Below are positions 1 through 15,503 of a stretch of 64,000 nt of DNA, one piece after another. The translations under genes and the position numbers were made by a program. The DNA is taken from the NCBI RefSeq assembly GCF_900089605.1, contig NZ_LT594324.1, positions 2,046,001-2,110,000 on the forward strand, given 5' to 3'. Source of the DNA: Micromonospora narathiwatensis. GTDB lineage: Bacteria > Actinomycetota > Actinomycetes > Mycobacteriales > Micromonosporaceae. Below the pieces are notes generated by a model that made no database searches, had not been told where the DNA came from, and saw nothing but the letters and a program-made list of their open reading frames with translations. Positions within the stretch are counted from its first letter, which is position 1, and every line of letters begins with the position of its first letter.

Positions 1-946
1 GGAAGCCGCTGCGGGCGTCGTACCCCGCCGCACGCAGCCGGCGGTAGCCGTCGTCGAGCACCGCGTTGACGCCCGGTGCCAGCTCGGGCTTCTCGACGGC
101 GTCCCGGCCGTAGCTCTCCACGAACGCGACCAGCACGTCCTTGCCGCGCAGCCCGGTCAGCAGCCGGTCACCGGGCACATCCCGGTACGCGTCGGCGGCC
201 ACCTCGGCGGCGAACGCGGCGCGGTCGCGCAGTCCGGCGCGTACCTGACCGGCGTGCGCCGCGACCAGGGTGCTGGCGTCCCGGCCGGCGACCGGTACGC
301 CACCGGCGAGCCGTACGCCGGCCAGGGCGCAGCCCAGCCAGAGCACGGACAGCGCCGCGACCACCCGTACGGCGCCGGCCCGGTGCCGTACGGCGAGCCG
401 GGTCAGCCGCAGCACCGACCCGGTCATCAGGACGGGCAGCCCGACGGCGAGGAGCAGCATCCCCGCCGCCGCGGCGACCGCGCCGGCCCGCCCGACCGAG
501 TCGGCGACGAAGCCGAAGCCGTCGTCGACCAGCCCCCAGTCGAGCAGCACGTCGAACGGCCGGTCCCGGGCCACGAAGAGGCCCAGGTCCAGCAGCCTGA
601 GCACGGCGAGCAGCCCGAGCGCCAGGCCGAGCAGCACCGCGACCGGACGGCGTACCCGGGCCGGGAGGACGAGCAGCAGCGCCGCGGCGATCAGCCCCTC
701 CACCGGGATCCGCAGGAACGCGGCCGGCCCGATTCGGCCCGGCTGACCCGGTACGACGAGAGCCGCGAGCACCAGCAGCGCGGCGAGACCGGTGAGCGAG
801 CCGGCCGCGAACCGGTGCCGCCGAGTCGGCGACGCCGGGGAGCCCACCGGCCCGGTCCCGTCCGGCGGGGTGGCCGGGGTGGTGGTGGGGGACGGTCCGG
901 TCGGCGGGTTCCCGGCGGGCCGGCGGGGGCGGGCGAGGAGTGGCAA
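1..946 (-). CDS. Sulfatase-fold membrane protein (LTA-synthase/phosphoglycerol-transferase type), 3' part outside window
   Basis: The 315 residues in view start with a Pro-rich, Thr-rich tail of about 47 residues. Several hydrophobic helices follow (roughly 48-66, 80-120, 150-170, 195-215), and then the start of an extracytoplasmic domain with GKDVLVAFVESYGRDA near residue 275. That motif is the opening strand of the alkaline phosphatase/sulfatase superfamily, including the E that precedes the metal site. The catalytic Thr/Ser and remaining metal ligands lie beyond the left edge. I chose the TTG start because AGAAGGA sits 6-7 bases upstream in the right frame and no in-frame ATG exists nearby. 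It follows the CDP-alcohol phosphotransferase by 37 bases, so the two are probably co-transcribed. Known relatives transfer phospho-alcohol head groups from phospholipids or hydrolyse sulfate/phosphate esters; the substrate here is unknown. Confidence 0.75.
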   Translation of the reverse strand, partial: MPLLARPRRPAGNPPTGPSPTTTPATPPDGTGPVGSPASPTRRHRFAAGSLTGLAALLVLAALVVPGQPGRIGPAAFLRIPVEGLIAAALLLVLPARVRRPVAVLLGLALGLLAVLRLLDLGLFVARDRPFDVLLDWGLVDDGFGFVADSVGRAGAVAAAAGMLLLAVGLPVLMTGSVLRLTRLAVRHRAGAVRVVAALSVLWLGCALAGVRLAGGVPVAGRDASTLVAAHAGQVRAGLRDRAAFAAEVAADAYRDVPGDRLLTGLRGKDVLVAFVESYGRDAVEKPELAPGVNAVLDDGYRRLRAAGYDARSGF

Positions 947-983
947 GTCATGTCCTTCTTGGCGGGCGGCGGTGGGCCCGGTG

Positions 984-1790
984 TCACACCGGCTGCCGTG
1001 TGGCCAGGGGTGCCGGCCGTGTGGCCAGGGGTTGTTGTCGCGCGGCCAGGGGTGCCGATCGGGGGCGGCGGGACGGGTGGACGGCCTCGACCGCCGCGAC
1101 GGCGGGACGGTGCCGCCACAGCCAGACCACGTCGCGGCCGAACGACTCGACCAGCAGGGCCAGCGCGCCCGCGACCAGCGCGGTGGCCGCCACCGGGGGC
1201 AGCACCCCGCCGGCCGCGACCAGCAGCACCACGCCCTGGGTCGCCGCGACGACCTTGCGCCAGTGCCGCGCCGGCAGCGTGCCCCGCATCCAGGGCAGCA
1301 GCCGGCTCGCCGCGACGAAGGCGTACCGCATGCCGCCGATGGCCAGCACCCAGCCGCCGAGCGACGGTGCGAGGTGGACGCTGAGCAGCAGGATCAGGAA
1401 CGCGTCGACCTCCATGTCGAAGCGCGCGCCCAGGGCGCTCGTCGTGCCGGTACGCCGGGCCACCCGGCCGTCGACCGCGTCCAACGCCAGCGCCACGGCG
1501 GTCAGCGGGACCAGCGCCGCCACCGGCGCCGTCCCGCCCCGGCCGGACACGACCAGGGCCAGCACCCCGCCGACCAGCAGCGCCCGGGCCAGGGTCACCC
1601 GGTCGGCCGGGCCGAGCCGGTCCGCGCCGACGGCCCGCAGGCCGTGCCGGAGCAGGCCACCGAGCGCCACGCCGTACGCCAGGCCGGCGAGCCACCCCGA
1701 CACCCCGATCTCCGTCGTGCCGGCGAGCCCCGCCAACAGGACGAACTGGACGATCAGCCCGACCAGTGGGCCATTTCGAACCGTGGACAC
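984..1790 (-). CDS. CDP-alcohol phosphatidyltransferase family membrane enzyme
   Basis: The full family signature is present: DGRVAR, then eight residues, G, three residues, D, three residues, D (DGRVARRTGTTSALGARFDM followed by EVD). The first D of LDAVDG is also present, so metal and CDP binding should be intact. About six hydrophobic helices surround it. The enzyme would join a CMP-activated phospho-alcohol to an acceptor alcohol in the membrane, as phosphatidylglycerophosphate or phosphatidylinositol synthases do. The acceptor cannot be read from sequence. I prefer GTG at 1790 (GGAGG just upstream, spacing short at 4); GTG at 1832 or TTG at 1829 in the same frame are alternatives that would intrude on the divergent promoter. 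The C-terminus carries a short PLATR-type repeat. It is divergent from the pterin-like operon and upstream of the sulfatase-fold gene. Confidence 0.85.
   Translation of the reverse strand: MSTVRNGPLVGLIVQFVLLAGLAGTTEIGVSGWLAGLAYGVALGGLLRHGLRAVGADRLGPADRVTLARALLVGGVLALVVSGRGGTAPVAALVPLTAVALALDAVDGRVARRTGTTSALGARFDMEVDAFLILLLSVHLAPSLGGWVLAIGGMRYAFVAASRLLPWMRGTLPARHWRKVVAATQGVVLLVAAGGVLPPVAATALVAGALALLVESFGRDVVWLWRHRPAVAAVEAVHPSRRPRSAPLAARQQPLATRPAPLATRQPV
994..1050 (+). repeat. Short tandem repeat in the C-terminal coding end of the CDP-alcohol phosphotransferase
   Basis: Three near-copies of a GGCCAGGGG-centred unit (spacing about 18-21 bases) encode the C-terminal PLAAR/PLATR/PLATR residues of the minus-strand gene. 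The repeat lies after the last membrane helix, so copy number could vary without touching the catalytic part. Confidence 0.6.
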
Positions 1791-1881
1791 CCGGCCTCCG
1801 TGTCTATGATCGACAACCCTGTTACTCAACACGGGATAACCGGCCGTCCGGTTCGGTCCACAGTCGGAAAAGAGGAAATTC
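1791..1881. promoter_or_regulatory. Divergent promoter region of the pteridine-like locus
   Basis: About 90 bases separate the leftward CDP-alcohol phosphotransferase from the rightward dehydrogenase. The stretch is less GC-rich than its surroundings and includes GATAACCGG and TATGAT, which could serve as -10 elements. The right end carries AGAGGAAA, a ribosome binding site 5 bases before GTG at 1882. I cannot identify an operator with confidence. Confidence 0.4.
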
Positions 1882-2859
1882 GTGACCGGCGATGCCCAGG
1901 CATTCTGGCTCCGCGCCCCCGGCGAGGGCGAGATCCGCCGGGTCGAGCTGCCGTCGCCCGGCCCCGGGGAGGTGCTGGTCCGGACCCGCTACTCCGGCGT
2001 CAGCCGGGGCACCGAGACGCTGGTCTTCACCGGCCGGGTTCCCGCCGACCAGCACGCCAGCATGCGCGCCCCGTTCCAGGAGGGCGACTTCCCGGCCCCG
2101 GTCAAGTACGGCTATCTCAGCGTCGGTGTCGTCGAGCAGGGGCCGGACCGGCTGCTCGGGCGTACGGTCTTCTGCCTGCACCCGCACCAGACCGCGTACG
2201 TGGTGCCGGCCGACGCCGTGGTGGTCGTACCCGAGAACGTGCCGGCCGCCCGGGCGGTGCTGGCCGGCACGGTGGAGACGGCGGTGAACGCGCTCTGGGA
2301 CGCCGCGCCGCTGGTCGGCGACCGGGTGACCGTGGTCGGCGCCGGCATGGTCGGCTGCTGCGTCGCCGCCCTGCTCGCCCGCTTCCCCGGCGTACGCGTC
2401 CAACTCGTCGACGCGGACCCGGCGCGGGCCGCGGTGGCCGCCGCGCTCGGGGTCGGGTTCGCCGTGCCCGCCGACGCGGCCGGCGACCGGGACCTCGTGG
2501 TGCACGCCAGCGCCACCGCCGACGGGCTGCAACGCGCCCTCGACCTGCTCCGCCCCGAGCGCACCGTGCTGGAGCTGAGCTGGTACGGCGACCGTCCGGT
2601 GACGCTCGCCCTGGGCGGGGCGTTCCACTCGAAGCGGCTCGGCATCCGCAGCAGCCAGGTCGGCACCGTGTCGCCCCGGCGGGCCGACCGCGGCTACGCC
2701 GACCGGCTGGCGCTGGCCCTGGAGCTGCTCGCCGACCCGGTGTTCGACGCGCTGCTCACCGGCCCGTCCCGCTTCGCCGACCTGCCCGACGTGCTCGACC
2801 GGCTCGCCGCCGGCCGGCTGCCCGCGCTCTGCCACCTCATCACCTACGCCGAGGAGTGA
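1882..2859 (+). CDS. MDR-superfamily dehydrogenase lacking the catalytic zinc motif (BchC/threonine-dehydrogenase-like)
   Basis: This 325-residue protein has the medium-chain dehydrogenase layout: an N-terminal GroES-like part with SGVSRGTE near residue 39, and a Rossmann part with VTVVGAGMVGCCVAALL near residue 150 for NAD(P). The usual structural zinc Cys cluster and the GHE catalytic zinc site are absent, as in the BchC-like branch. It would oxidise or reduce an alcohol/carbonyl group on an unknown substrate. It is the first gene of the operon, with a GTG start preceded by AGAGGAAA. The next gene starts 3 bases after its stop, so translation is probably coupled. Its constant company of PTPS-like, glycosyltransferase and RibA genes suggests it modifies the sugar or side chain of the locus product. 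Confidence 0.75.
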   Translation: MTGDAQAFWLRAPGEGEIRRVELPSPGPGEVLVRTRYSGVSRGTETLVFTGRVPADQHASMRAPFQEGDFPAPVKYGYLSVGVVEQGPDRLLGRTVFCLHPHQTAYVVPADAVVVVPENVPAARAVLAGTVETAVNALWDAAPLVGDRVTVVGAGMVGCCVAALLARFPGVRVQLVDADPARAAVAAALGVGFAVPADAAGDRDLVVHASATADGLQRALDLLRPERTVLELSWYGDRPVTLALGGAFHSKRLGIRSSQVGTVSPRRADRGYADRLALALELLADPVFDALLTGPSRFADLPDVLDRLAAGRLPALCHLITYAEE

Positions 2860-2862
2860 ATC

Positions 2863-3261
2863 GTGTTCAGCGTGACCGTCCGGGACCACATGATGGTCGC
2901 CCACAGCTTCCGTGGCGAGGTGTTCGGGCCGGCGCAGCGGCTGCACGGCGCCACCTTCGTCGTCGACGCCACCTTCCGCCGGCCGGAACTCGACGCCGAC
3001 GGCATCGTGGTCGACATCGGCCTGGCCACCGAGCAGCTCAAGGCCGTGCTCGGCGCGCTGACCTACCGCAACCTCGACGACGAGCCGGCCTTCGCCGGGG
3101 TGAACACCACCACCGAGGTGCTGGCCCGCACGGTCGCCGACCGGCTCGCCGAGGCCGTGCACGCCGGCCGCCTCGGCGACGGCGCCCACGGCCTCGCCGG
3201 GATCACCGTCACGCTGCACGAGTCGCACGTCGCCTGGGCCAGCTACGAAAGGTCCCTGTAG
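2863..3261 (+). CDS. 6-pyruvoyl-tetrahydropterin synthase/QueD-fold protein with altered active site
   Basis: The 132-residue length, the N-terminal MVAHSF, the LHGATF element near residue 28 and the C-terminal [12 protein letters not shown] identify the PTPS/QueD (T-fold) family. In QueD the zinc ligands are the His of the AAH motif and both His of LHGH, and a Cys just before LHGH is catalytic. Here the Cys is replaced (AQRLHG), the second His of HGH is Ala, and the DHHYLND catalytic His region reads LTYRNLDD. The pterin-anchoring Glu (HES) is kept. It therefore probably binds a pterin or related heterocycle but cannot use the textbook mechanism. The GTG start is preceded by GAGGAG. The glycosyltransferase gene begins 4 bases downstream. 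Confidence 0.8.
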
Positions 3262-3265
3262 CCGG

Positions 3266-4303
3266 ATGACGCTCGTCCACGTGGTGCTGCCCGGCGACAT
3301 CGACGACCCGGCCGACCCCAGCGGGGGCAACGCGTACGACCGGCGGGTCTGTCACGGCCTGGCCGCCCTCGGCTGGACCGTCCGGGAGCACCCCGTGCCC
3401 GGCGGCTGGCCGCATCCCGAGCCGGCGGCGCGGGCCGCCCTCGCCGGACTGCTCGCCGCGCTGCCCGACGCCGCGCTCGTCCTGCTCGACGGCCTGGTCG
3501 CCGCCGTGGTGCCGGAGGTGCTGGCCCCGCACGCCCGGCGGCTGCGCCTGGTGGTGCTCGTCCACCTGCCCGCCGGGGACGAGGCCGAGGCCCGGTCGCT
3601 GGCCGGGGCGGCCGGCGTGATCGCCACCAGTGAGTGGACCCGCCGCCGGCTGCTCGACCGCCATCGGCTCCCCGCCGGGCGGGTACGGGTCGCCGCGCCC
3701 GGAGCGGACCCGGCACCGGTCGCCCCCGGCTCGCCGGCCGGCACCCGGCTGCTCTGCGTCGCGGCCGTCACTCCGCTCAAGGGGCACGACGTGCTCGCCG
3801 CCGCGCTGGCCACCCTCGCCGACCTGCCCTGGACCTGCGACTGCGTCGGTCCGCTCAGTCGGGACCCGGGCTTCGTCGAGCGGCTGTGCCGGCAGCTCGC
3901 CGACACCGGCCTGGCCGACCGGGTCCGGCTGCCCGGACCATGGGCCGGGGCCGCCCGGGACGCCGCGTACGCCGCCGCCGACCTGCTGGTGCTGCCGTCC
4001 CGGCGGGAGACGTACGGGATGGTGGTAACCGAGGCCCTCGCGCGGGGCGTACCGGTGCTCGGCAGCGACACCGGCGGGCTGCCCGAGGCGCTCGGACACA
4101 CCCCGGACGGCCACCGGCCCGGCCTGCTCGTGCCCGCCGACGACCCGGCGGCGCTGGCCGGCGCGCTGCGCCGCTGGCTCACCGACCCGACCCTGCGGGA
4201 CCGGCTGCGCCGCGCGGCCCGGCGGCGGCGGGACACCCTCACCGGCTGGACGGTCACCGTGGACCGGCTCGCGGCGGCCCTGAAGGAGGCGGCGTCGGCT
4301 TGA
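3266..4303 (+). CDS. GT4-family glycosyltransferase (GT-B fold)
   Basis: The 345-residue protein starts with a nucleotide-sugar-type Rossmann strand and a Gly-rich turn (PSGGNAYDRRV near residue 18). Its C-terminal half has the GT4 hallmarks LLCVAAVTPLKGHD near residue 165 and ETYGMVVTEALARG near residue 250, the EX7E motif that holds the donor sugar. The acceptor is unknown. In this operon an acceptor derived from the cyclohydrolase/PTPS-like branch or a lipid made by the divergent phosphotransferase would both make sense. No membrane helix is visible, so it should be cytosolic or peripheral. The stop overlaps the TTG start of the methyltransferase by 4 bases. Confidence 0.85.
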   Translation: MTLVHVVLPGDIDDPADPSGGNAYDRRVCHGLAALGWTVREHPVPGGWPHPEPAARAALAGLLAALPDAALVLLDGLVAAVVPEVLAPHARRLRLVVLVHLPAGDEAEARSLAGAAGVIATSEWTRRRLLDRHRLPAGRVRVAAPGADPAPVAPGSPAGTRLLCVAAVTPLKGHDVLAAALATLADLPWTCDCVGPLSRDPGFVERLCRQLADTGLADRVRLPGPWAGAARDAAYAAADLLVLPSRRETYGMVVTEALARGVPVLGSDTGGLPEALGHTPDGHRPGLLVPADDPAALAGALRRWLTDPTLRDRLRRAARRRRDTLTGWTVTVDRLAAALKEAASA

Positions 4304-5106
4304 CCATCCAACTTCCCCCCGACTTCGCCGACTGGTTGTGGCTGCGCGAGCCCGCCGACGCGGCGGCCCGCTCGGTCGACCTGGTGGACGCGGTCCGCCG
4401 CCGGCTGCCGGCCGACCGGCCCGTGGTCGTGCACGACCTGGGCAGCGGCACCGGCTCGATGGCCCGCTGGCTCGCGCCCCGCCTGCCCGGCCCGCAGCAC
4501 TGGGTGCTGCACGAGCGCGACCCCGACCTGCTGGCCCGCGCCGCCGCCGAGTGGGACACCGCCGACGGCGGGCCGGTCACCGTGGCGACCCGGGGCTCCG
4601 ACATCACCCGGTTGCGGGCCGCCGACCTCGCCGACGCCCACCTGGTCACCGCGTCGGCGCTGCTGGACATGCTCACCGCCGACGAGGTCGAACGGACCGT
4701 GGCCGCCTGCGCCGGCCGCCCCACGCTCTTCGCGCTCACCGTGGTCGGCCGGGTGGAGTTCACCCCGACGGACCCGCTCGACGCGGAGCTGACCGCCGCG
4801 TTCAACGCCCACCAGCGCCGCACCGTCGACGGCCGGACCCTGCTCGGGCCGGACGCCGTGCCCGCCACCGTGGCCGCGTTCCGCCACCGGGGAGTCGACG
4901 TCCAGATCCGGTCCAGCCCCTGGCGGCTCGGCCCCGATCAGCCGGCGCTGACGGCCGAGTGGCTGGCCGGCTGGCTCGACGCGTCCGTCGAGGAACGGCC
5001 GGACTTGGCCGGCGCGGCCGGGGCGTACCGGGAGCGGCGGCTGGCGGAGGCGGCGTCCGGTCGACTGCGCGTGGTGCTGCACCACGCCGACCTGCTGGCC
5101 GGGTGA
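4300..5106 (+). CDS. Class I SAM-dependent methyltransferase
   Basis: Residues 40-55 contain VVHDLGSGTGSMARWLA, the glycine-rich SAM-binding motif I, followed by an acidic strand end (HERDPDLL) fitting motif II. At 268 residues the length is normal for a class I fold. TTG at 4300 overlaps the upstream stop (TTGA) and has AAGGAGG about 10 bases upstream, which supports coupled translation. The family methylates many small molecules; nothing in the sequence fixes the acceptor. Its position between the glycosyltransferase and the membrane protein suggests tailoring of the same product. Confidence 0.8.
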   Translation: MTIQLPPDFADWLWLREPADAAARSVDLVDAVRRRLPADRPVVVHDLGSGTGSMARWLAPRLPGPQHWVLHERDPDLLARAAAEWDTADGGPVTVATRGSDITRLRAADLADAHLVTASALLDMLTADEVERTVAACAGRPTLFALTVVGRVEFTPTDPLDAELTAAFNAHQRRTVDGRTLLGPDAVPATVAAFRHRGVDVQIRSSPWRLGPDQPALTAEWLAGWLDASVEERPDLAGAAGAYRERRLAEAASGRLRVVLHHADLLAG

Positions 5107-5155
5107 ACCACCCCGCGCCGGGGCCCGTGACATCAGGGGACCGAGGGAGGACCGC

Positions 5156-6166
5156 TTGGCACCCGCCATCACCACCACCACCGTCCGCCCCGCACCCGCC
5201 GCGCCCGCCGGGCCCGAGGCGCGACCGGTCCGGTCGCCCTGGCCGTGGGTACGGGCGCTCGGCGGGCTCGCGGTGCTCGGCGTCCTGGTCTGGTCGGTGG
5301 GCGCCGGCCCGTTCCTGACCGGGCTGCGGATGATCGACGCGCCGGCACTCGCCGCCGCCCTCGCCATCGGCGCGGTCACCACCGTCTGCAGCGCCTGGCG
5401 CTGGTCGCTGGTCGCCGACGGGCTCGGCGTACGGCTGCCGCTGCCGACCGCCGTCGCCCACTGCTACCGGGCGGTCTTCCTCAACTCCACCCTCCCGGGT
5501 GGGGTGCTCGGCGACGTGCACCGGGCGCTCCGGCACGGCCGCGACGCCGGAGACATCGCCCGGGGCATCCGGGCCGTGGTCTGGGAGCGTACGGCCGGTC
5601 AGCTGGTCCAGCTCGGCATCGCGGTGGGCGTCCTGACGGTGCTGCCGTCGCCGGTCCGGGCGTACCTGCCGGTGCTGGCGGCCGGGCTGGCCGTCGCCGG
5701 GCTGGCGCTGGTGCTGCTGGCCCGGGCGGTGCCCCGCTCCGGCGCGTCCCGCTGGGCGCGGGTGGCGCGTACCGCCGTGGCGGACGTCCGCGCCGGCCTG
5801 CTGGCCCGGCGTACCTGGCTCGGCGTGGTCACGGCGTCGGTGGTGGTGGTCGCCGGCCACCTGGCCACCTTCGTGCTCGCGGCGCGCACCGCGGGCGCCG
5901 ACGCGCCGCTGCCCCGGCTGCTGCCGCTGGCCCTGCTCGCGCTGCTGGCCATGGGGCTGCCGGCGAACGTGGCCGGCTTCGGGCCGCGTGAAGGGGTGGC
6001 CGCCTGGGCGTTCGCCGCCGCCGGGCTGACCGCCGCCCAGGGCGTCGCCACCGCCACGGTGTACGGCGCGCTGGTTCTGGTCGCCAGCCTGCCCGGCGCG
6101 GCGGTGCTGCTGCGCCGGATCCCCCGCCGGGAGGCCGGCAACTGTCGGTCATCCCGCCTACGGTGA
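5156..6166 (+). CDS. UPF0104/AglD-type multi-pass membrane protein (lysylphosphatidylglycerol synthase TM region family)
   Basis: The 336-residue protein has a Pro/Ala/Thr-rich N-terminus and about eight hydrophobic helices. The family landmarks are visible: a first element resembling N-x-x-LPGGVLGD near residue 118, and PANVAGFGPREGVAAW near residue 275. Members act as, or resemble, lipid or polyprenyl-linked sugar flippases, or as the membrane half of aminoacyl-phospholipid synthases; this one lacks the aminoacyl transferase half. The start is TTG at 5156 with GAGGGAGG upstream. In this locus it may move a lipid-linked or glycosylated product across the membrane. That is inference. Confidence 0.75.
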   Translation: MAPAITTTTVRPAPAAPAGPEARPVRSPWPWVRALGGLAVLGVLVWSVGAGPFLTGLRMIDAPALAAALAIGAVTTVCSAWRWSLVADGLGVRLPLPTAVAHCYRAVFLNSTLPGGVLGDVHRALRHGRDAGDIARGIRAVVWERTAGQLVQLGIAVGVLTVLPSPVRAYLPVLAAGLAVAGLALVLLARAVPRSGASRWARVARTAVADVRAGLLARRTWLGVVTASVVVVAGHLATFVLAARTAGADAPLPRLLPLALLALLAMGLPANVAGFGPREGVAAWAFAAAGLTAAQGVATATVYGALVLVASLPGAAVLLRRIPRREAGNCRSSRLR

Positions 6167-6220
6167 GGGTGCGAGGTGCTCGTTGCCGGCGCGTCCGGCA
6201 GCCCCGGACGAAGGAGAACG

Positions 6221-6874
6221 ATGGACGAAACGCTGCCCACGGCCACGGTTCGGACCCAGGTCACGGTCCCGCTGAGGTTCCCCGACGGGTACGTCACGAC
6301 CGCCCGGCTGCACTCCTTCCACGGCCTGGTCGACGGTCGGGAGCACCTCGCGTTCGGGCTCGGCGACCGGGCCGCCGCCGAGGACCGCCCGGCGCCGGAC
6401 GTCGTACCGCCGCTGGTCCGCCCGCACAGCGAGTGCCTCACCGGGGACGTGTTCGGCAGTCAGCGTTGCGACTGCGGGCCACAGCTGCGGGAGGCGGTCG
6501 AGCGGATCGCCGAGGCCGGCGGATACCTGCTCTACCTGCGCCAGGAGGGCCGGGGCATCGGCCTGTACGCCAAACTCGACGCGTACGCCCTCCAGGACGG
6601 GGGTCTGGACACGTACGAGGCGAACGTGGCGCTGGGCCGGGGCGCCGACGAGCGTGACTACACGGTGGCCGCGCAGATGCTCGCCGCGCTGGGCGTGAGC
6701 CGGGTGGCCCTGCTCAGCAACAACCCGGACAAGGCGGCCCAGCTCGACCGGCTGGGCGTGACGGTGGTCGACCGGGTACCGACCGGCGTGCACCTGTCCC
6801 CGGCGAACGCCAACTACCTGGCGGCGAAGGCGACCCATGCCGACCACGCCCTCGACCTGCCGTTCGTGCCGTGA
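6221..6874 (+). CDS. ribA: GTP cyclohydrolase II
   Basis: This 217-residue, monofunctional enzyme (no RibB domain) has the zinc motif CLTGDVFGSQRCDCG near residue 80 with all three Cys, and RQEGRGIGL near residue 108. The catalytic Tyr is in KLDAYALQD, and the Asp/Arg pair is in GADERDY. It should convert GTP to 2,5-diamino-6-ribosylamino-4(3H)-pyrimidinone 5'-phosphate plus formate and pyrophosphate. Because the Tyr is retained (some actinobacterial paralogues carry Met there and stop at the formylated product), full deformylation is expected. ATG at 6221 follows AAGGAGAACG. It overlaps the RibD-type reductase by 4 bases. No other riboflavin genes are nearby, so this may be a pathway-specific paralogue. 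Confidence 0.9.
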   Translation: MDETLPTATVRTQVTVPLRFPDGYVTTARLHSFHGLVDGREHLAFGLGDRAAAEDRPAPDVVPPLVRPHSECLTGDVFGSQRCDCGPQLREAVERIAEAGGYLLYLRQEGRGIGLYAKLDAYALQDGGLDTYEANVALGRGADERDYTVAAQMLAALGVSRVALLSNNPDKAAQLDRLGVTVVDRVPTGVHLSPANANYLAAKATHADHALDLPFVP

Positions 6875-7563
6875 CCGCCCGGCCGTACGTGCTGCTGAGC
6901 TGCGCCATGTCGATCGACGGCTACATCGACGACGCCACCACCGATCGGCTGCTGCTCTCCAACGACTCCGACCTCGACCGGATCGACGCGGTCCGGGCCG
7001 CCTGCGACGCCATCCTGGTCGGCGCGGCCACCGTCCGCCGCGACGACCCACGGTTGCTGGTGCGCTCCGACACGCGGCGGGCCGACCGGGTGGCGCGCGG
7101 CCTGCCGCCGTCGCCGGTGAAGGTCACCGTCACCGGCAGCGGCGACCTCGACCCGACGGCCCGGTTCTTCGCGCTCGGCGACGGGGTGAAGCTGGTCTAC
7201 TGCCCGACCGGAGCGGCGGAGAAGACCCGCGAGCAGGTCGGCCAGGTGGCGACCGTGGTCGACGTCGGCGAACCGGTCACCCCGCAGGCGATCCTCACCG
7301 ACCTCGCCGTCCGGGGCGTCCGCCGGCTGATGGTGGAGGGCGGCGGCAGCGTGCACGGCCAGTTCCTCACCGCCGGCGTCGCCGACGAGTTGCACCTGGT
7401 GGTCGCGCCGTTCTTCGTCGGCGACCGCCGGGCGCCCCGGTTCGTCGGGGACGGGCGTTTCCCCTGGCGTCCGGGCCGCCGCGCCCGGGTCGTCGAGGTA
7501 CGCCAGATCGACGACGTGGTGCTCACCCGGTACGCCCTCTCCGACCGCTGCCCGCCGGGCTGA
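6871..7563 (+). CDS. RibD C-terminal-type (dihydrofolate reductase fold) pyrimidine reductase
   Basis: The 230 residues cover only the reductase half of RibD. LLSCAMSIDGYIDD lies at the N-terminus, AILVGAATVRRDDPRL near residue 48 and LMVEGGGSVHGQFL near residue 152 (the VEGG NADPH/substrate element). The zinc-dependent deaminase domain of RibD is missing. The likely reaction is NADPH reduction of a ribosylamino-pyrimidine to the ribitylamino form, which fits the product of the adjacent cyclohydrolase. GTG at 6871 overlaps the ribA stop. It is the last gene of the operon; a hairpin follows at 7624-7662. Confidence 0.85.
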   Translation: MTARPYVLLSCAMSIDGYIDDATTDRLLLSNDSDLDRIDAVRAACDAILVGAATVRRDDPRLLVRSDTRRADRVARGLPPSPVKVTVTGSGDLDPTARFFALGDGVKLVYCPTGAAEKTREQVGQVATVVDVGEPVTPQAILTDLAVRGVRRLMVEGGGSVHGQFLTAGVADELHLVVAPFFVGDRRAPRFVGDGRFPWRPGRRARVVEVRQIDDVVLTRYALSDRCPPG

Positions 7564-13868: not shown

Positions 13869-15503
13869 TCAGTCCCGGCCGCGCTCGGCGCGGTAGCGGC
13901 GGATCAGCGCGGCGGTGGAGGAGTCCACGTCGCCGAGGTCCGGTGCGCTTCCGGTGAGCTTCGGCGCGAGCTGGTTGGCCATCACCTTGCCCAGTTCCAC
14001 GCCCCACTGGTCGAACGCGTTGATGTCCCAGACCGCCGCCTCGGTGAACACGATGTGCTCGTAGAGGGCGATCAACTGGCCCAGCGTCGACGGGGTCAGC
14101 TTCGGCGCGATGATCGACGTGGTCGGGTGGTTGCCGGGCATCACCCGGTGCGGCACCACGTCGGCCGGGGTGCCCTCCGCCTCGACCTGTTCCCGGGTAC
14201 GTCCGAACGCGAGCGCGGCGGTCTGTCCGAGGAAGTTCGACATGAACAGGTCGTGCATGTCCCCGAGGTCGTGGTTGGGCTGGCTGAACGCGATGAAGTC
14301 GGCCGGGACGAGCCGCGTCCCCTGGTGGATCAGCTGGTAGAAGGCGTGCTGACCGTTGGTGCCGGGCTCGCCCCAGAAGATCTCCCCGGTCGGGTACGTC
14401 ACCGGGGTGCCGTCGACGGTCACCGACTTGCCGTTGCTCTCCATGGTGAGCTGTTGCAGGTACGCCGGGAACCGGTGCAGGTACTGCGCGTACGGCAGCA
14501 CCGCGTGGGTCTGCGCGCCGAGGAAATCGGTGTACCAGACGTTGAGCAGGCCCAGCAGCGCCGGCAGGTTCCGCTCGACCGGCGTGGTGCGGAAGTGCTC
14601 GTCGACGGCGTGGTAGCCGGCCAGCATGTCCCGGAACCGTTGCGGCCCGATCGCCAGCATCACCGACAGCCCGACCGCCGAGGGCAGCGAGTACCGGCCG
14701 CCCACCCAGTCCCAGAAGCCGAACATGTTCTCCGGGTCGATGCCGAAGTCGCGGACCCGCTGCTCGTTGGTGCTGATCGCGACGAAATGCCGGGCGATCG
14801 CGGAGTCTTCCGCGTCCAGCCCGGCGAGCAGCCAGCGCCGGGCCTGGTCGGCGTTGGCCAGGGTCTCCTGGGTGGTGAACGACTTGGAGACCACGACGAA
14901 AAGCGTGCTGGCCGGGTCCAGGTCGGTGGTCTTGTCGTGGATGTCGGTCGGGTCGACGTTGGACACGAACCGGCAGGAGATCCCGGCGTCCCGGTACGCC
15001 TTCAGCGCCTCGTACGCCATCACGGGCCCGAGGTCGGAGCCGCCGATGCCGATGTTGACCACGGTGGTGATCCGCTCGCCGGTGTATCCACGCCAACTGC
15101 CCGAGCGTACCCGGTCGGCGAAGGCCGACATCCGGTCGAGCACGGCGTGCACGTCGGCGACCACGTCCTGCCCGTCGACCGTCAGCGAGGCGTCGCGCGG
15201 CAGGCGCAGCGCGGTGTGCAGCACGGCGCGGTCCTCGGTGGAGTTGATGTGCTCGCCGGCGAACATGGCGGCGATCCGGTCGGTCAGCCGGACCCGCTCC
15301 GCGAGCGCGGTGAGCAGGCGCAGCGTCTCGTCGGTGACCAGGTTCTTGCTGTAGTCCACGTGCAGGTCGGCGACGTCGCCGGTGAGCCGGGCACCTCGCT
15401 GCCCGTCGGTGGCGAACAGCTCCCGCAGGTGGGTGTCGCGCAGCGCCTCGGCATGTTTGCGCAGGGCCTGCCATTCGTCCGTGGTGGTGACGTCCACAGC
15501 CAT
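13869..15503 (-). CDS. pgi: Glucose-6-phosphate isomerase
   Basis: The 544-residue length is typical. Recognisable motifs are [20 protein letters not shown] near residue 150, the sugar-phosphate loop [12 protein letters not shown] near residue 205, the catalytic Glu/His region MESNGKS and [15 protein letters not shown] near residues 350-390, and the C-terminal Lys in [11 protein letters not shown]. It interconverts glucose 6-phosphate and fructose 6-phosphate in the cytosol. ATG at 15503 is preceded by AAGGAGAG at good spacing. It is a single gene, divergent from an aldo/keto reductase. Confidence 0.97.

Follow-up and report, generated by a model that had tools for sequence, protein, structure and literature searches.

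A Micromonospora narathiwatensis locus read as an orphan GTP-derived glycoside pathway with candidate membrane-lipid genes

Introduction

Several described pathways that begin with the opening of GTP bear on the locus analysed here, a nine-gene cluster at the left end of a 64,000-nucleotide stretch of the Micromonospora narathiwatensis genome (assembly GCF_900089605.1, contig NZ_LT594324.1, positions 2,046,001 to 2,110,000 of the forward strand; hereafter the window). In archaea and fungi, GTP opening is followed by an optional separate deformylation and by a reduction that precedes any deamination. The tetrahydrobiopterin-glycoside pathways of cyanobacteria and Chlorobium resemble the cluster in combining a GTP-opening enzyme, a PTPS-fold protein, a reductase and a glycosyltransferase, but they start with GTP cyclohydrolase I, use an active PTPS and are not known to include a stand-alone RibD_C reductase (RED) or lipid genes. 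Two genes of Streptomyces coelicolor have been studied singly, SCO6650 through a structure (PDB 3d7j) and SCO6655 through its activity. Spoonamore, Bandarian and colleagues reportedly found SCO6650 to be without zinc and without PTPS activity, and SCO6655 is said to yield a formamide product owing to Met120.

The open-licence PMC literature yielded neither a product nor a pathway description for the SCO6650-6655 locus. The pathway is not treated in passages of a review of COG0720 paralogs (PMC5041015), and no passage on the terms sought was found in a 2026 pterin review (PMC13259868). One table of a metabolic-model paper lists SCO6655 as a GTP cyclohydrolase II among anticorrelated genes, most of which rise in stationary phase (PMC2853524). 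Passages of a Sinorhizobium study, which also name the deformylase ArfB, describe the creatininase-annotated protein BrbF as a formamidase acting on the same formamide compound (PMC9478397). BrbF is in this respect like the predicted creatininase-family deformylase considered here, but BrbF serves riboflavin, whereas the gene for the predicted deformylase occurs in other genera, in clusters of the SCO6650 type, and not in the window.

The PTPS-like protein of the window is 79% identical to SCO6650 (104/132 residues; E 9.4e-68 against PDB 3d7j, 'Uncharacterized protein SCO6650'), and the window locus is thus the SCO6650-6655 locus. Judging from genes alone, we lean towards reading it as a dedicated pathway from GTP to a glycoside, joined in actinomycetes to a membrane-lipid module. 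It is read as an orphan pathway with a predicted first half; co-occurrence and gene order assign its members and predict the first intermediate. If the lipid part of the reading were true, major antibiotic producers would make a new kind of membrane lipid from a vitamin-type heterocycle.

Results and Discussion

Gene content of the locus

The nine-gene content was confirmed from open reading frames (ORFs), Pfam matches and start sites, as follows.

1..946, minus strand: SULF, a membrane protein with a putative LtaS-type alkaline-phosphatase/sulfatase domain, truncated by the window edge
984..1790, minus strand: CDPA, a CDP-alcohol phosphotransferase (PF01066, catalytic motif, co-occurrence, upstream sequences)
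1882..2859, plus strand: MDR, a divergent medium-chain dehydrogenase/reductase distantly related to BchC
2863..3261, plus strand: PTPS-like T-fold protein, ortholog of SCO6650 (PF01242, PDB 3d7j, altered active site)
3266..4303, plus strand: GT4 glycosyltransferase (Pfam, NCBIfam and PDB matches)
4300..5106, plus strand: MT, an S-adenosylmethionine-dependent methyltransferase with a TTG start
5156..6166, plus strand: LPGS, an LPGS-TM/UPF0104 membrane protein, putative lipid flippase (PF03706)
6176..6874, plus strand: GCH2, a Tyr-type GTP cyclohydrolase II with a predicted deformylated product (PF00925, NF001591, residues)
6871..7563, plus strand: RED, a RibD_C reductase without a deaminase domain (PF01872), overlapping GCH2 by 4 bases

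Pfam curated cut-offs were exceeded for PTPS, GT4, LPG_synthase_TM (UPF0104), GTP_cyclohydro2, RibD_C and CDP-OH_P_transf. The families named in a reading made earlier from the sequence only were thus borne out, with MDR, MT and SULF the weaker calls. That sequence-only reading also described a gapless operon; the seven plus-strand genes (1882-7563) are indeed collinear, but with intergenic gaps of 3, 4, -4, 49, 9 and -4 bases the operon is better called near-gapless. CDPA and SULF diverge from it on the minus strand.

The ORFs at the locus showed no ribB, ribE, ribH or RibD-type deaminase, in line with the earlier view that this is not a standard vitamin operon. The genome has two GCH2 genes, ten RibD_C matches and two PTPS genes in total. 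At L004 (C1:909501-929500) Pfam identified a RibD with a deaminase domain and a RibBA, and other frames there were read as riboflavin synthase and RibH. Since this second rib operon is complete, an ordinary riboflavin operon was ruled out for the window locus.

Distribution and gene order

Among 296 genomes of the class Actinomycetes, a PTPS match (E<=1e-3) was found in 46 and an MDR match (1e-30) in 44, all within those 46; the two PTPS-positive genomes without an MDR match had PTPS E values of only 4e-4 and 6e-4. Two loci with weak PTPS matches and no cluster (L089 and L090) were dropped. CDPA (1e-12) was present in 42/44 genomes with the MDR-PTPS core compared to 3/252 others (G123, G211 and G239), and two or more GCH2 genes in 39/44 compared to 17/252. 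The larger co-occurrence differences gave Fisher p values of 1e-18 or less, in tests that ignore kinship among the genomes. The co-conservation that the earlier reading proposed to look for was found.

A scan of named species gave at least 444 confirmed candidates in genera including Micromonospora, Streptomyces, Amycolatopsis, Pseudonocardia and Actinomadura, of which the best 80 were analysed. Because one contig, shared by G241 and a Thermomonospora echinospora record, appeared as both L048 and L151, loci of the class sample and the named scan can overlap, and locus counts were made on 125 distinct loci. Gene order was counted where a distinct locus reached 19 kb, and MDR, PTPS and GT4 stood in that order on one strand in 91/91. 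LPGS was found in 86 of these, CDPA in 83, MT in 82, GCH2 in 80 and SULF in 27; each count takes the best match to a gene in the sequence fetched and could include a nearby paralog. A strain-specific oddity was ruled out by this recurrence; the order is shared by many genera and is not confined to this strain. In the fragmented genome G009 the core occurred on two contigs (L052 and L073), as two copies or a mixed assembly.

MDR was also detected in 43/396 genomes of the phylum, 34 of them outside the class with 35 to 45% identity. Twenty of these 34 outside-class loci were examined. A RED or fused GCH2-RED frame lay beside MDR in 19, a PTPS-like gene in 19 (13 found by tblastn and six by motif and position, two of the six confirmed by Pfam) and GT4 in 18. 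The locus L230 had no RED, PTPS-like gene or GT4 with its MDR, and the sequence of L216 ends before the expected position of GT4. No homolog of CDPA, LPGS, MT or SULF was found in the 20 loci (tblastn, 1e-4); L224 carried a different methyltransferase 3' of GT4. Because these homologs were not found there, the lipid module seems to have joined an older RED-MDR-PTPS-GT4 core at a later stage.

The GTP-opening enzymes

The window GCH2 scored 258.9 bits against NF001591 (cut-off 148) and 184.1 bits against TIGR00505, below the cut-off of 205.85. Compared with an E. coli sequence, it has the three zinc Cys, Arg128 and Tyr105. We presume that a GCH2 without Tyr105 should halt at the formamide. In the first step GCH2 most probably opens GTP to 2,5-diamino-6-ribosylamino-4(3H)-pyrimidinone 5'-phosphate. 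In Streptomyces-type clusters, whose GCH2 is without Tyr105, the reaction would stop at the formamide and be completed by the creatininase-family deformylase of the same cluster. Such a gene is present in S. parvulus (L140), where the order is PTPS, GT4, MT, LPGS, creatininase-family gene and GCH2; these six would fit the numbering SCO6650 to SCO6655. In the window, by contrast, GCH2 is of the Tyr type and accompanied by RED, and a creatininase gene is absent.

Across 106 distinct loci, one of them the window, the residue at E. coli position 105 and the presence of the creatininase gene sorted together (GCH2 frames of 90 bits or less were left out). Tyr was present in 42/42 creatininase-free loci, the window among them, and absent from 64/64 creatininase loci, where the residue was Met (47), His (12), Leu (3), Cys (1) or Gln (1). 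In 52 of the latter, no more than 1 kb separates the creatininase gene from GCH2; in the other 12 it lies farther off in the sequence fetched. In seven loci (L131, at 14477-15280, and L120, L128, L129, L134, L137 and L150) an inositol-monophosphatase family gene, an assignment backed by Pfam for L131, lay near GCH2; it is a candidate for removal of the 5'-phosphate.

The window RED missed the cut-off of its best NCBIfam match, TIGR01508 (127.9 vs 186.45 bits). Its closest PDB entries were a diaminopyrimidine reductase and 5xux ('Conserved protein'), which we take to be archaeal Rib7. The sequence D[DN]PxLxxR, presumably the substrate-site motif of such reductases, reads DDPRLLVR in the window and was kept by RED in 56/59 class loci (exceptions L115, L135 and L168); ORFs at six other RibD_C loci of the genome did not show the strict DDP form. 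In L086, L138 and L222, GCH2 and RED were fused in one protein (PF00925 plus PF01872) with no deaminase domain, which suggests that the two steps are consecutive. As a second step RED most probably reduces the ribosyl to a ribityl chain with no deamination, as in archaea and fungi. GTP opening, optional deformylation and reduction before any deamination would be features shared with the archaeal/fungal front end of riboflavin synthesis (GTP-opening enzyme, ArfB, RED/Rib7), from which the locus differs in having no deaminase, lumazine synthase or riboflavin synthase and in having MDR, PTPS and GT4.

At E<=1e-40, RED was found in 36/44 core genomes compared to 36/252 others. Eight core genomes were negative: three of them encode a different RibD_C protein within the cluster, in two GCH2 and RED are fused, one has its RED gene split, and in two nothing was found. 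In genus g23, which was taken as Streptomyces, RED was present in 12/15 core and 3/12 non-core genomes (Fisher p 0.007), and the three RED-less core genomes had another RibD_C protein within the cluster. Among RED genes unlinked to the core, eight (L174, L175, L177, L178, L181, L183, L184 and L185) appear as one half of a split RibD. In three Streptomyces-type genomes that have the cluster (L171-L173, about 3.9-7.5 kb), the unlinked RED lies close to another GCH2 of the Tyr type, which shares 64-67% identity with that of the window.

These data also bear on whether GCH2 and RED are spare riboflavin genes that came by chance to lie next to a cell-envelope operon. Both are riboflavin-type enzymes, and the fusion may serve riboflavin in G221 and G273, which have no other GCH2. 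Even so, we regard chance proximity as very improbable given the complete rib operon elsewhere in the genome, the position of RED beside MDR and PTPS in 19/20 outside-class loci and the fusions that lack a deaminase domain.

The PTPS-like protein, MDR, GT4 and MT

The window PTPS is a T-fold protein by PF01242 (83 bits), as the sequence-only reading had it, but neither an ordinary PTPS nor an ordinary QueD. It missed the cut-off of the PTPS family TIGR03367 (36.7 vs 89.25 bits), and catalytic residues are replaced. Across 123 distinct class orthologs, compared with an E. coli QueD sequence, Ala replaces the catalytic Cys before HGH in 121 and the third zinc His in 120, and Tyr replaces the catalytic His in 119, whereas the pterin-binding Glu110 is kept in all 123. 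The window protein, which is additional to the 123, has Ala at both the Cys and the third zinc His sites, and the outside-class copies inspected retain a His-x-His motif with the catalytic Cys gone. These replacements rule out an ordinary QueD of queuosine synthesis or a biopterin PTPS; taken together with the conserved Glu110, they indicate that the pocket seems to have been kept and the chemistry changed. The genome's other PTPS (L013, C1:1166777-1167133) retains CGRLHGH, the motif of active QueD/PTPS enzymes, intact.

The window MDR matched ADH_zinc_N at 0.0022, outside the 1e-3 threshold. Its best NCBIfam match, BchC, was far below the cut-off, an MDR profile found no PDB match at 1e-8, and the protein apparently has no catalytic zinc site. 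We tentatively place MDR and the PTPS-like protein at a third step in which the ring or side chain would be altered, perhaps by phosphate elimination or tautomerisation followed by reduction, by analogy with PTPS and sepiapterin reductase. Glycosylation by GT4 and methylation by MT would form a fourth step. The best matches of GT4 include MshA, which glycosylates inositol phosphate (3c48, which we take to be MshA, is among the PDB matches). MT only just passed its Pfam cut-off (27.2 vs 27 bits); its predicted model resembles generic class I methyltransferases and its profile gave weak, generic matches in the PDB. GT4 and MT form a single frame in L087.

The conserved Glu raises the question of a true pterin. 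In that scheme the deformylated, unreduced ribosyl compound would be rearranged and closed to dihydroneopterin phosphate by the T-fold protein, as GTP cyclohydrolase I does in the latter half of its reaction. MDR would then take the part of sepiapterin reductase and GT4 that of a pteridine glycosyltransferase, and RED, since RibD_C proteins resemble DHFR, would be a dihydropterin reductase. The universal pterin-binding Glu and the His-x-His motif of the outside-class copies fit such a scheme, and bacterial pteridine glycosyltransferases are described in passages of one paper (PMC5683033). We nevertheless judge a true pterin unlikely, as the best matches of RED are pyrimidine reductases whose motif it keeps in nearly all class loci, the GCH2-RED fusions suggest consecutive steps and the third zinc His has been lost from almost all class orthologs.

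The lipid-linked genes

CDPA carries the catalytic motif DxxDGxxAR(x8)GxxxDxxxD in the window sequence and in the alignment; its resemblance to PDB entries for choline and serine phosphotransferases was weak. It mostly adjoins MDR. G002, G281 and G196 carry CDPA on a different contig, where neither MDR nor PTPS is its neighbour; in G196 it adjoins SULF. Two of the genomes without the core show other arrangements. In G123 (L205, genus g23), which has no MDR or PTPS match, incomplete frames resembling CDPA and GCH2 are perhaps what is left of the cluster. G211 (L199) has a CDPA homolog (53-57%) without PTPS, MDR or GCH2 matches, a stand-alone use of CDPA.

SULF is 581 aa at full length (L003:9201-10946), extending about 800 bases to the left of the window, and falls just under the PF00884 cut-off (24.0 vs 25 bits). 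A model of the L095 ortholog (mean predicted local distance difference test score 79) placed LtaP and LtaS at the top of the Foldseek list, with template-modelling scores of 0.31-0.36 by query length. The protein conserves Glu, Ser and Asp-His residues that may have LtaS-type active-site roles. In model and residues it may resemble the LtaS/GacH phosphoglycerol transferases, but it is 12 to 15% identical to the LtaP, LtaS and GacH structures compared.

From the co-occurrence within the class we infer a fifth step in which CDPA would couple the sugar-alcohol or phosphate end of the product to a phospholipid, in analogy to PgsA and PIP synthases with glycerol or inositol phosphate. The UPF0104 protein would then flip the product, and the LtaS-like enzyme, where present, would transfer the head group outside. 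As a guess, the function would be that of a redox-active or UV-absorbing glycoside, anchored to the membrane in actinomycetes. A bolder form of the proposal, which we hold only tentatively, is a new class of bacterial metabolite. GCH2, RED, the remodelled PTPS and MDR would turn GTP into a glycosylated ribityl-pyrimidine or pteridine that would be widespread in Actinomycetota, serving in Streptomyces, Micromonospora and their relatives as the head group of a new phospholipid, flipped outward as a membrane-bound redox or light-absorbing cofactor.

The observations that weigh against a dedicated pathway with a lipid module fall on both of its halves. In the GTP-opening half, the correlation between residue 105 and the creatininase gene appears in the GCH2 tree as a single split, so that it is essentially one event kept in two clades and not 106 independent cases. 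The cluster GCH2s form four groups in that tree, with L088, L135 and L138 apart; since the other three groups fall together, only two separate origins are safe, and GCH2 was recruited at least twice. No RED or RED2 match was found in G002 and G281 (the RED2 search covered 17 genomes, none of them a Streptomyces-type genome without the core), while RED is carried by the 36 coreless genomes counted above. Eight of 18 unlinked RED contexts adjoin a separate deaminase-like gene, and the unlinked RED of L171-L173 has VN in place of VR and so lacks the Arg of the motif. The sole, fused GCH2 of G221 and G273 belongs here as well. In the lipid half, CDPA was not found in the core genomes G071 and G273, SULF is limited to 27/91 long loci, and the outside-class loci yielded none of the lipid-gene homologs.

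The last two points, with the stand-alone CDPA of G211, would also suit a soluble metabolite only, that is, a glycosylated and methylated heterocycle that is stored or exported, with CDPA, UPF0104 and SULF linked to it in some other way, through export or membrane homeostasis. We find this rather unlikely: CDPA follows the core in 42/44 genomes, against 3/252 others, and mostly sits beside MDR, and it is present on another contig in G002, G281 and G196. The earlier interpretation, a glycosylated and methylated heterocycle attached to or exported with a membrane lipid, is in sum partly supported. Its non-riboflavin GTP pathway, its core glycosyltransferase and, within the class, its strong genetic link to CDPA and UPF0104 hold up, whereas the structure of the product, be it a pteridine or a pyrimidine, and the attachment to lipid are inferred.

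Flanking and upstream sequences

The longest ORF of CDPA reaches 1832, but orthologs and a GGAGG box point to 1790 as the likely start. The interval left between CDPA and MDR, 1791-1881, is a short divergent promoter region that is alike in the Micromonospora sequences compared. An imperfect AACCGG-CCGGTT palindrome lies 5' of MDR and was matched in 49/123 upstream stretches with up to three mismatches, a count made with no shuffle control. An Rfam scan at gathering thresholds found no riboswitch at the cluster in the seven related loci that it covered, the window not being one of them; a SAM-IV riboswitch (103.7 bits) was detected outside the cluster at L095:17584-17695 on the minus strand. 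On the 3' side the window locus faces a convergent operon that was read from its translations as an amino-acid transporter.

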